Below are positions 30,736-36,136 of a stretch of 61,439 bases of DNA, in pieces. Origin of the DNA: Brachyspira sp. SAP_772 (GTDB lineage Bacteria > Spirochaetota > Brachyspiria > Brachyspirales > Brachyspiraceae); NCBI RefSeq assembly GCF_009755885.1, contig NZ_VYIX01000003.1:245764-307202 (forward strand). Direction: 5' to 3'. The notes beneath the pieces are model-generated. The model made no database searches. It saw only the letters and a list, made by a program, of their open reading frames with translations, and was not told where the DNA came from. The position numbers and the translations under genes were made by a program. Position 1 is the stretch's first letter. Every line of letters begins with the position of its first letter.

Positions 30736-32246
<1,511 letters not shown>

Positions 32247-32479
32247 CTCACTTTTTCAGTGAATCGTTTTCGATTCTTTATTTTATCACTTTACTAAGTG
32301 ATGATTTACTTTTTAGCAAAGAAATTGTTACTTATTGTAACGCGTTTAGGTCTCCGAACTTAATTAAAAGTTCGTTTACACCAGTTGTGTTTTGTTTTAT
32401 TAAACTAGCTTCTGCTATCCATATTTCAAAGAACTTTTTGTTTCAAGCGATTTTTTTATTTCTCATCGTTTGTTTTATT
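32247..32479 (-). other. 16S rRNA leader with small hairpins
   Basis: Between the likely start of transcription (about 32473) and the 16S 5' end. It holds the hairpin GAATCG-tttt-CGATTC, a second ATCACTT...AAGTGAT and a third CGAAC...GTTCG. Such structures are typical of rRNA processing leaders. Confidence 0.5.
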
Positions 32480-32839: not shown

Positions 32840-33592
32840 TTGGAAACAATGTTAGATATCATAAATAAGGTACAATTAGAAAGTATCAAAAATTTAGATA
32901 AGGATACTTTTATATCAATAGCTAATTTATGTTCTTTCATTCCTAAATCTCTAACAGAAAGCAACAAATGGAAAAAACTTCCCCTATCTGCTAAAGAAGT
33001 ATATAGAGTTTTAGTTGCTAATTATGACTACGAAAATGGCATAGCAAAAACTACTCACTCTCAAATGCTAAATGAGGCAGGAATCGGGGGAAATGCTACT
33101 ATAGTAAAATCTTTAGATACTTTAGAAGAAAACAATTTTATTACTAGAGTTGAATCTAAAGTAAAAAGTCATTATTACCTTATGCCGTATCAAGAAAAGT
33201 TTTTTGCTGATATGTGCCATTTTAGCCCAAGAGATTTTTCTGTACTATACACAATAAACAAAAAAGTTAAAAAAGAACAGCAAGTTAAACAAGCTATAGA
33301 TAAACTATTTTTCAAAGTTTGTTATAAATTAAGCTATCTTGGTATAGATAATCCGCAAAAATTAATAGAAAAATACTCTTCCGATGGTTATAAATTGAGA
33401 GTAATACAATTTATGGCTGATTCGGTTTATATAGTTAAGAAGTATAATCTAAACAATGACAATATAGACCTAAATAAATATCTTATAGATTTATTAAAAA
33501 AGGGAAACATTAAAGAAAACATATTTGACAATGATAAAATGAATGCTATAAGAAATATAATAATAAAAAATAAACAAAATATTACAGAGTAA
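32840..33592 (+). CDS. Winged-helix (HTH_36-like) protein, unnamed
   Basis: A 250-aa cytoplasmic protein. Residues about 48-115 form a winged-helix DNA-binding domain (LPLSAKEVYRVLVANYDYE, KTTHSQMLNEAGIGGNATIVKSLDTLEENNFI) like those in replication-initiator and HTH_36 families. The rest is helical and Lys-rich, unrecognised. The start is TTG at 32840 (CGGAGAG eight bases before) or ATG at 32849. It ends 4 bases before the H1-like/LysM gene, so the two are almost certainly one operon. Possibly a regulator or chromosome protein. Confidence 0.6.
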   Translation: METMLDIINKVQLESIKNLDKDTFISIANLCSFIPKSLTESNKWKKLPLSAKEVYRVLVANYDYENGIAKTTHSQMLNEAGIGGNATIVKSLDTLEENNFITRVESKVKSHYYLMPYQEKFFADMCHFSPRDFSVLYTINKKVKKEQQVKQAIDKLFFKVCYKLSYLGIDNPQKLIEKYSSDGYKLRVIQFMADSVYIVKKYNLNNDNIDLNKYLIDLLKKGNIKENIFDNDKMNAIRNIIIKNKQNITE

Positions 33593-33596
33593 AAAT

Positions 33597-35759
33597 ATGG
33601 CAACAAAAAAAACAACAAACAAAGAAGAAGCAAAAAAAGCTACCACAGCTAAAAAAACTACTGCAGCAAAAAAAACTGCTAATAAAGAAACAACATCTAA
33701 AGAATCTGCTGCAGTAAAGAAAACAGCTTCAAGCATTAAAAAAACAGACACTGCAAAAAAAGATACAGCTAAAAAAACTGATACTAAAAAAACTGAAGCA
33801 TCTGTAAAAAAAGCTTCAACAGTTAAAAAAGCTGTAGCTTCTAATAAAGAAACAACATCTAAAGAATCTGCTACAGTAAAGAAAACAGCTTCAAGCATTA
33901 AAAAAACAGACACTACAAAAAAAGATACTGTTAAAAAAACTGATACTAAAGATACAACTAAAAAAACTGTATCCCCTTTAACTTCTTTAAAAAAAGATAA
34001 TACTCAAAAAACAATAGATAATATTTTCAAAAAAATGGCTACTAAAGATGATGATGCTGATAAATCTTCAAAAACGTCAAAAGAAACAACTTATACTCCA
34101 TTAAGAACATCATCAACTATAAGAAAAATAGAGCCAATAAAAACAACTGAAAAACCTTCTGAAAGAGAATCTATTTCTTTACTAAAAGAAGCTATAAGAG
34201 CTAAATCTAAAAATGTTTCAAAACCAATAGTAGCAAAAAAACATTTAGTTGTAACAGATGATAAAGTTGAAGAAGAAACAACTAACAAAGAAGTTAATAA
34301 CGAAACAAAAAATAGTGAAAATATTTTTAATAAAACAAGTGATATAGTAAGTAGTGTACTTAACAAAAAAGAAAATGATATAGTTCTTAAAGAAAATAAT
34401 GATAAACCTCAAACTTTAGAGGAAGTTGTAAAAAAATATCATTTTGATTCTTTTGATAAATACAAAGAAGAAGAAACTAAAGAACCTCAAGAGATAAAAG
34501 AAGAATTAGAAAAAATAAAAAGCGATATAGAAGATATAGAACAAGTAGAAAATAAAGTTATAGACGAAAAAGTAGAAACAGTAAAAGAAGAAATAAAAGA
34601 AAAAATAACTTATACTAAAGGTGATATATTTAAAAATAGAAAAGTTGTACTTCCTACAATAATGCAGCAAAATGTTAATGAAGAGTCAAAGTTTAATCAG
34701 GAAGAAATGGATAAAGCAATAGAAAATGCTGCAGAAATAGACGATGATACTCCTGTAGAAGATTATCAAAATTATTCAAATCAAAAATTAAAAGAATTAG
34801 AAGAAAAAGATATTAAAATAATAGAAACTGAAGAAGAATTAAAAACTTCTACTGTTATACCTGAAATAGAAAAAAAACCTGTAGAACCATACAAAGTTCC
34901 AGACCATTCTATTGACAAAAAAGATGAAAACAAATCAAATAAACTAATACCAATTATAGGTATTATAATTATAATATTAGGATTATCATTCTTAGGTTTT
35001 CAATTCTTTACTTCCAAAAATGATAATAATGATGATGGTTTTTATAATATAGTTACAAATGAAAATGTATTAAGCAATGAAAATCTTAATGAAATGACAA
35101 ATGATTATGATAGCTTATCTGATATATCAAATATAAATGCTATAAGCAGCAATAGAAATAACCTTATAACTAATCAACAAAATAATAATACAAATAAGGT
35201 TATAACCAATAATATAGCAACTAATAATAACATTGCAACAAATGTTAATAATAATACTAATCAGATAAATAGAACAACAAATAATAATCAAGTAAATACT
35301 AATACAGCAACAACAGTAAAAACAAACTCAATTAATACAAATGTTACTCCTCCAAAAGAGCCTGAATTACCTAATCCGCCTGTAATACCAAACCCTCCTA
35401 CTCCACCAGCAACACAAAACAACACTCAAAACAATGCTACTACATATTTAGATGGTAATTTATATAAAACTCAGTGGACAGATACTTTAACTTCTATTGC
35501 TACAAAAGAGCTTGGAGATGCTAGAAAATGGCCTATGATTTTTGCTGCTAATGATAATATATTTACTGACCCTGATAAAATAGTATTTAATGTAAATATA
35601 ATAATACCTGATGACGGCAAAAAAAAAATTGAAGATATGAATGCAAGTGAAAAAAAAAATCTATATGATGCCTATATAAAAGTTGCTGATAGATATATGG
35701 AGCTTGGTAGAACTAATTTATCTAATATAGTGAGAAATGCTGCTAATAATATAAAATAA
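33597..35759 (+). CDS. Membrane protein joining an H1-like lysine-rich tail to a LysM-like domain
   Basis: A 720-aa protein with four parts. Residues 1 to about 130 are Lys/Thr/Ala-rich with KKT, KKTA and AKK repeats, like histone H1 tails, including two 36-residue copies starting at 29 and 83. Residues about 130-445 are acidic and coiled-coil-like. A single membrane helix lies at about 449-469 (KLIPIIGIIIIILGLSFLGF). After it an Asn/Thr-rich linker leads to a LysM-like domain at about 623-672 (WTDTLTSIATKELG...WPMIFAAND...IVFNVNIIIP). The positive-inside rule puts the H1-like end in the cytoplasm and LysM in the periplasm. I know no named family with this order. Confidence 0.65.
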   Translation: MATKKTTNKEEAKKATTAKKTTAAKKTANKETTSKESAAVKKTASSIKKTDTAKKDTAKKTDTKKTEASVKKASTVKKAVASNKETTSKESATVKKTASSIKKTDTTKKDTVKKTDTKDTTKKTVSPLTSLKKDNTQKTIDNIFKKMATKDDDADKSSKTSKETTYTPLRTSSTIRKIEPIKTTEKPSERESISLLKEAIRAKSKNVSKPIVAKKHLVVTDDKVEEETTNKEVNNETKNSENIFNKTSDIVSSVLNKKENDIVLKENNDKPQTLEEVVKKYHFDSFDKYKEEETKEPQEIKEELEKIKSDIEDIEQVENKVIDEKVETVKEEIKEKITYTKGDIFKNRKVVLPTIMQQNVNEESKFNQEEMDKAIENAAEIDDDTPVEDYQNYSNQKLKELEEKDIKIIETEEELKTSTVIPEIEKKPVEPYKVPDHSIDKKDENKSNKLIPIIGIIIIILGLSFLGFQFFTSKNDNNDDGFYNIVTNENVLSNENLNEMTNDYDSLSDISNINAISSNRNNLITNQQNNNTNKVITNNIATNNNIATNVNNNTNQINRTTNNNQVNTNTATTVKTNSINTNVTPPKEPELPNPPVIPNPPTPPATQNNTQNNATTYLDGNLYKTQWTDTLTSIATKELGDARKWPMIFAANDNIFTDPDKIVFNVNIIIPDDGKKKIEDMNASEKKNLYDAYIKVADRYMELGRTNLSNIVRNAANNIK
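33681..33785 (+). repeat. In-gene tandem repeat, copy 1 (H1-like region)
   Basis: Encodes NKETTSKESAAVKKTASS then IKKTDTAKKDTAKK. Nearly identical to 33843-33947, 162 bases away. Confidence 0.85.
33843..33947 (+). repeat. In-gene tandem repeat, copy 2 (H1-like region)
   Basis: Second copy: NKETTSKESATVKKTASS then IKKTDTTKKDTVKK. The few changes are mainly Ala-to-Thr or Ala-to-Val, suggesting a recent duplication. Confidence 0.85.
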
Positions 35760-36136
35760 TGAAAAAAAGTAAAAAGAAAAATGATATATTAGAGTTCTCT
35801 TGTATCGGTTGCGGGTTATGCTGTAAAGAAAATGGATATATATATTTCTCTTTAGAAGATATAAAAAAAGCTTCGGATTATTTGAATATCAATCCTCTTG
35901 TATTTATAGATAAATATTTAAAGCATAGTTATTCATTGGAATATCATATAAAAGTTGATGAAGAAAATAAGTGCCCTTTTTTAGATGAAAATAATAAATG
36001 TATTATAAATGATGCTAAACCAAAACAATGCTCTACATTTCCATATTGGAATGAATATACTGATAAAAATGGTAATTTAATATCTGGAAAATTCAATAGA
36101 CCTTGCCCGGGAGTGAAAGTTAAAAAGAAAAAATAA
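35759..36136 (+). CDS. YkgJ-family cysteine-cluster protein
   Basis: A 125-aa protein of the YkgJ family (zinc- or iron-chelating Cys cluster), function not established. Cysteines: SCIGCGLCCKENGY (around 14-23), CPFLDENNKCIIND (around 72-82), KQCSTFPYW and PCPGV. These four groups are the family pattern. Its ATG overlaps the last base of the preceding stop (TAATG), so it is translationally coupled to the H1-like/LysM gene. The tail is Lys-rich (VKVKKKK). Confidence 0.88.
   Translation: MKKSKKKNDILEFSCIGCGLCCKENGYIYFSLEDIKKASDYLNINPLVFIDKYLKHSYSLEYHIKVDEENKCPFLDENNKCIINDAKPKQCSTFPYWNEYTDKNGNLISGKFNRPCPGVKVKKKK

Follow-up and report, generated by a model that had tools for sequence, protein, structure and literature searches.

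Open reading frame analysis of a 61,439-nucleotide stretch of the Brachyspira sp. SAP_772 genome (hereafter the window) reveals an ATG-initiated gene that encodes a protein of 720 amino acids. From the N-terminus, the product consists of a tail rich in Lys, Thr, Ala, and Ser, a long acidic region, a single transmembrane (TM) helix, an Asn-rich linker, a LysM domain, and a helical hairpin (Table 1). The tail, lone TM helix, and LysM-like end had all been recognized in an original prediction made from the DNA itself, and our analysis supports that layout. The whole protein yields no confident domain in Pfam. A frame artefact or chance open reading frame is ruled out by orthologues that are 28-85% identical across two genera and by conserved gene order.

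The gene is closely packed between two others. Four bases separate it from the stop codon of an upstream winged-helix (wHTH) gene at 33592, and the start codon of a downstream CxxCxxCC gene at 35759 overlaps it by one base, which confirms the operon spacing first proposed. A sequence search identifies one such locus per genome in 26 of 29 Brachyspiraceae genomes, and an orthologue is present in a third genus (G028) too. The two remaining family genomes contain neither the gene for the 720-residue protein nor the wHTH gene, absences that are uncertain given assemblies of low completeness or with contamination. Intact orthologues range from 503 to 887 residues, with the variation falling largely in the tail and linkers, and the three-gene order is kept in three Brachyspiraceae genera at loci with enough contig. 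At one orthologous locus (L061:4738-8817, G011), paired frameshifts occur in the tail, and breaks interrupt both the orthologue gene and a downstream HD gene; sequencing errors in A-rich sequence could account for these.

The wHTH protein is 50-98% identical across two genera and is modeled as a winged helix plus a helical domain. Structure comparison of this model gives weak matches (Z about 7-8.6) to RepA_N-type plasmid initiators (Z 8.6-7.9) and MarR/Fur-type regulators. Foldseek returns nothing for the model at E<=0.001, and a profile search with the wHTH alignment against the PDB produces chance matches only. The wHTH protein likely binds DNA. In the sister family (G144 and G154), its homologue adjoins a lytic transglycosylase (SLT) gene rather than a LysM protein gene (L126:4272-7316 and L127:4593-7734), again a cell-wall partner. 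A lone 16S rRNA gene lies just upstream of the wHTH gene (window positions 30736-32248, minus strand), and the window holds no other rRNA.

Table 1 Features of the 720-residue protein gene and its neighbors, in window coordinates.
Feature	Position	Strand	Basis or remark
Winged-helix (wHTH) protein gene, 250 aa from TTG, single copy	32840..33592	+	Model resembles RepA_N-type plasmid initiator and MarR/Fur-type wHTH domains
Whole gene: basic tail, acidic disordered region, TM, Asn-rich linker, LysM, helical hairpin	33597..35759	+	720 aa
Lys/Thr/Ala/Ser tail, residues 1-133, histone-H1-like composition, predicted disordered	33597..33995	+	Composition, charge, AlphaFold2
Tail repeat copy 1, 118 nt	33676..33793	+	
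Tail repeat copy 2, 118 nt	33838..33955	+	94% identical to copy 1
Conserved short helix ERESI(S/T)LLKEAI.AK, residues 189-205	34161..34211	+	Orthologue alignment, model
Net-acidic cytoplasmic region, residues 221-449, mostly disordered, short conserved helices	34257..34943	+	
Single transmembrane helix, residues 450-472	34944..35012	+	
Asn/Thr- and Pro-rich periplasmic linker, residues 473-618	35013..35450	+	
LysM domain, residues 622-672	35460..35612	+	Profile, NCBIfam, model, structure alignment
C-terminal helical hairpin, residues 683-719	35643..35753	+	Common to other spirochaete LysM proteins
CxxCxxCC (PF03692) metal-chelating domain protein gene, conserved neighbor	35759..36136	+	1-base overlap

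Membrane orientation and the cytoplasmic region

No signal peptide precedes the TM helix, and in each of the 23 orthologues measured the outer flank of the helix carries a net negative charge. On these two grounds the protein is most simply predicted to adopt an N-in/C-out orientation, with the 449-residue N-terminal region in the cytoplasm. The same signals put the Lys-rich tail on the inner side of the membrane and not on the outer one, and the predicted N-in topology and DNA-side/wall-side architecture are those the original prediction had proposed.

Residues 4-133 are 78% Lys, Thr, Ala, and Ser (31% Lys) and carry a net charge of +26. Within a background of 74 open reading frames from the same genome, where the richest 130-residue window in these four residues has a median content of 31%, the tail is a strong outlier; the runner-up is a soluble DUF4912 protein at 72%, and the third-highest frame reaches 43%. 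The claimed resemblance to histone H1 holds for composition. Two direct repeat copies are present as described, spaced 162 nt apart, though each spans about 39 codons rather than 36 residues. Like the bacterial histone H1-like proteins Hc1, Hc2, and BpH1, the protein has a Lys/Ala-rich repeat tail. It matches no histone H1-like family model in Pfam or NCBIfam at E<=1, and one of 21 orthologues reaches the NCBIfam histone H1-like model NF038052 at 1.5e-5. The N-terminus is basic in all 23 measurable orthologues, which span three genera, with a cumulative net charge of +17 to +34 despite large changes in length. In many Brachyspira species the tail contains 12-19% Glu and 2-8% Asp and is only moderately positive.

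Similar tails occur elsewhere in the genus. The soluble DUF4912 protein of the same genome (L063:6080-6997, minus strand) bears an H1-like tail of 110 residues, rich in Lys, Thr, and Ala, that leads into an acidic stretch; the protein matches HC2 (PF07382) at 3.1e-6, below the cut-off. A Brachyspira coiled-coil protein has a shorter Lys/Thr tail. Given these two examples, the tail could be a general feature of Brachyspira proteins.

From residue 220 up to the TM helix the net charge is -25. AlphaFold2 predicts disorder for the tail and for most of the cytoplasmic part, and in the acidic region it places low-confidence short helices (e.g., 298-318) with no long coiled coil. Of the "acidic coil" initially described, the acidity thus stands and the coil does not. 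Every intact orthologue in two genera retains one short helix, ERESITLLKEAI, and the G028 orthologue contains three copies of a similar pattern. This helix is likely a partner-binding motif.

The LysM domain and its HU-bearing relatives

A profile built from 21 orthologous C-termini matches solved LysM structures, including E. coli Kbp (7pvc, 1.9e-7) and a phage tail protein (9g8s, 1.8e-8). The NCBIfam model PRK11198 matches at 3.5e-6, below its cut-off, and is listed for 14 of the 21 orthologues. AlphaFold2 models the C-terminus as a beta-alpha-alpha-beta unit with a pLDDT of about 82-91 followed by two helices, and structure alignment of the LysM model gives Z scores up to 7.4 over 54 residues (rmsd 1.3). 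The Pfam LysM model PF01476 matches neither the 720-residue protein at E<=1 nor any of the 21 orthologous C-terminal fragments scanned singly at E<=10. Profile, model, and structure alignment nevertheless agree on a LysM-like domain where one had been suggested (residues 623-672), with its start now placed one residue earlier.

By both profile and structure alignment, the closest LysMs are those of Kbp and of phage baseplate and tail proteins, not those of wall hydrolases. Kbp is a K+ binder. The canonical Gly of the GD-T/S-L loop is replaced in the 720-residue protein (WTDTL), and Trp627, Asp629, Thr630, Trp645, Pro646, Asn652, Pro659, and Asp660 are invariant over two genera. The single-copy, conserved locus rules out a phage origin for the domain. 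The LysM-plus-hairpin module is also found on spirochaete lipoproteins with no cytoplasmic part and on other proteins.

Searching the Spirochaetota with the C-terminal LysM-hairpin profile shows that similar C-termini are joined to various other N-termini. An N-terminal HU domain (PF00216) is present in proteins from G067 (2e-20), G154 (1.4e-7), G042 (6.5e-24), and G184 (7.2e-20), as well as in treponeme-family proteins from G118 (2.9e-13), G204 (3.2e-11), and G283 (6.5e-18). Each of these has one TM helix and a LysM or LysM-like C-terminus, with Pfam LysM above the cut-off only in G067, G154, and G184. Aligned by hhalign to a set that includes these HU-TM-LysM proteins, the C-terminus of the 720-residue protein scores 97.8% (E 1.1e-12) over 92 columns, hairpin included. 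HU-TM-LysM proteins are patchily distributed outside Brachyspirales, and a strict threshold recovers the treponeme form from 3 of the 79 genomes in its genus. A soluble HU gene lies directly upstream of, or overlaps, the HU-TM-LysM gene in G067, G184, and G118 (gene pairs at L130:1853-3734, L193:2353-3746, and L195:2810-4646), an arrangement that suggests a possible HU heterodimer with one membrane-anchored subunit. Two treponeme-type proteins (L139:2717-4489 and L140:4108-5724) combine an Hsp70-like N-terminal domain (PF00012 at 6.7e-6 in the former) with acidic repeats, one TM helix, and a C-terminal LysM.

The 720-residue protein has no PF00216 match in a Pfam scan. Its clade is well supported in a phylogenetic tree (96/98) but is not joined with support to the HU-bearing clades, while an HU-like paralogue from Brachyspira groups with G154 (93/98). 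A firm claim of HU-bearing ancestry for the protein is rejected because its clade sits at an open fork in the tree; replacement of HU by the basic tail in its lineage is possible.

At 1e-6, 255 of 296 Spirochaetota genomes contain PF00216, none of them from Brachyspiraceae, and no free HU or IHF was found in the 29 Brachyspiraceae genomes with this model at E<=1. In nearly all 29, the top match at E<=1 is a 526-650-residue frame of the HU-like TM-LysM paralogue, with shorter frames where the contig or reading frame is broken. The copy in the SAP_772 genome (G000:C3:201789-203423, equivalent to L202:2790-4424, minus strand) is 544 residues long, contains a TM helix and a LysM-like C-terminus, and matches PF00216 at 7.9e-13 in three stretches that represent HU-like repeats; repeated HU-like units characterize the paralogue in some Brachyspiraceae species. 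Since these HU-like domains align chiefly with the first half of the HU profile, their DNA binding is uncertain. Judged by sequence, this paralogue holds the only recognizable HU in Brachyspiraceae genomes.

A predicted nucleoid-to-wall anchor

We predict, with middling confidence, that the 720-residue protein is an inner-membrane anchor spanning the distance from nucleoid to cell wall. The cytoplasmic polybasic tail would bind DNA without sequence preference in the manner of histone-H1-type tails, and the single TM helix, by its sequence features, places the C-terminus in the periplasm, where the LysM domain, whose fold is shown, and the hairpin would engage, or be positioned by, peptidoglycan. 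The short conserved cytoplasmic helices may recruit a partner, plausibly (from gene order only) the wHTH protein, which would add a sequence-specific DNA contact. The chromosome would in this way be fastened to the wall for positioning or segregation. Several spirochaete proteins join a cytoplasmic module to a TM helix and a LysM, and the 720-residue protein belongs among them; HU serves as the module in several others. We favor this anchor because a plan of DNA module, TM helix, and LysM recurs, with the basic tail in a similar position, and because a wHTH gene is adjacent; both the relatives with HU in the cytoplasmic position and this wHTH neighbor support the arrangement of DNA inside and wall outside. 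Further support comes from the tail being compositionally extreme and basic in every measurable orthologue, the LysM fold, the N-in topology, the conserved three-gene order, the C-terminal match to the set with HU-bearing proteins, the soluble HU genes beside three of those proteins, the HU-like paralogue, the lack of free HU or IHF in the 29 genomes, and the precedent of Rv3852. Counting against the anchor are the kinship of the LysM with Kbp and phage proteins, the presence of the LysM-hairpin module on lipoproteins, the lack of a supported join to the HU-bearing clades, the only moderately positive tails of many Brachyspira species, the similar tails on other Brachyspira proteins, and the sister-family wHTH homologue that adjoins a transglycosylase gene instead of a LysM protein gene.

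More tentatively, spirochaetes, and Brachyspiraceae above all, may anchor the nucleoid to peptidoglycan directly, using single-pass proteins in which a DNA module (HU or an H1-like tail) is coupled to LysM, and Brachyspiraceae may have lost free HU and retained HU-like domains only in wall-anchored form. Known chromosome-membrane contacts are transient or involve the membrane only (Noc, RocS, RacA with DivIVA, and Rv3852). A DNA-to-peptidoglycan protein, if real, would couple the genome to the wall mechanically. Spirochaete cells are long and thin and flex, and such coupling could help hold their genome copies in position. Because a whole family apparently has no free HU and carries HU-like domains on a membrane protein only, the idea is directly testable.

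The best rival model, which we consider rather unlikely, is a landmark of the HubP/FimV type with reversed polarity. Here LysM would hold the protein at a site on the wall (pole or division plane) and the disordered charged part would recruit flagellar, chemotaxis, or division proteins as clients, with the tail being no DNA binder. Repeat number in HubP/FimV varies between close species (PMC12918733), and the cytoplasmic region of the orthologues likewise varies greatly in length while keeping helical motifs such as ERESITLLKEAI; the treponeme-type proteins with Hsp70-like domains also show that modules unrelated to DNA are used in this setting. However, neither Pfam nor NCBIfam detects a FimV/TPR domain, the N-terminus is consistently basic rather than the region being solely acidic, relatives have HU at the corresponding cytoplasmic position, and the neighboring wHTH protein likely binds DNA.

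HU in the relatives also counts against a second, quite improbable alternative, an envelope protein whose generic polybasic, low-complexity tail contacts acidic lipids, RNA or ribosomes, or its own acidic region and mainly stabilizes the link between membrane and wall. The AT-rich genome and the Lys/Thr tails on at least two other Brachyspira proteins are consistent with such a tail, and the polyampholyte layout, positive in the tail and negative in the middle, would permit self-association. Against this, the tail stands well apart from the other open reading frames and is basic in three genera, and the DUF4912 tail-bearer itself matches histone-H1-like families, albeit below the cut-off. Least probable is that the LysM-like domain binds a periplasmic protein or ion instead of peptidoglycan, leaving DNA anchored to the membrane only, as with Rv3852: the kinship with Kbp and phage tail proteins, the altered loop, and the lack of a PF01476 match fit this idea, but the FimV LysM-like domain does bind peptidoglycan (PMC12918733) and eight residues of the domain are invariant over two genera.

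Comparison with known systems

A search of the available literature for HU-LysM fusions, Brachyspira LysM proteins, and Brachyspira nucleoid proteins found no earlier description, and no literature was found on HU-TM-LysM proteins of Spirochaetota. The original prediction knew no named protein with this order, and we likewise found none for the whole order, though each half has a counterpart, in HubP/FimV (PMC12918733) and in Rv3852 (PMC8233713).

HubP and FimV, polar landmarks of gammaproteobacteria, combine a periplasmic LysM-like domain and a single TM helix with an acidic cytoplasmic region that is long and disordered and contains variable repeats (PMC12918733). The 720-residue protein shares the periplasmic LysM, the one TM helix, and the extended acidic cytoplasmic region. 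In HubP/FimV, however, LysM is N-terminal and follows a signal peptide, and the cytoplasmic C-terminus carries a FimV/TPR domain, whereas here a basic N-terminus is cytoplasmic and a C-terminal LysM is periplasmic. Membership in this family is rejected on the reversed orientation and the absence of the FimV family in Pfam and NCBIfam. The Hsp70-like treponeme-type proteins have a HubP-like layout, also with reversed polarity.

On the DNA side, the nearest analogue by architecture is Rv3852, a mycobacterial membrane-anchored nucleoid protein in which H1-like repeats are combined with a TM helix and which binds DNA (PMC8233713). Compared by architecture only, both proteins have cytoplasmic H1-like basic repeats and one TM helix; Rv3852 differs in carrying its helix at the C-terminus, and neither a LysM nor any other wall domain is described for it. 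RocS of Streptococcus pneumoniae links nucleoid and membrane in one protein and functions in chromosome segregation (PMC11500499). It differs in having an amphipathic helix and a helix-turn-helix domain and no wall-binding domain. Burroughs et al. (2017) reportedly described HU-CCDC81-TM-SPOR proteins of Bacteroidetes, with a predicted DNA-binding-type domain inside and a peptidoglycan-binding one outside; these have SPOR in place of LysM and HU in place of a basic tail. The HU-TM-LysM proteins share with the 720-residue protein an apparent N-in single TM helix, a C-terminal LysM plus helices, and a cytoplasmic module of DNA-binding type, and some adjoin a second DNA-binding gene. They differ in the module itself, HU versus a basic tail, and in the neighbor, a soluble HU gene versus a wHTH gene.
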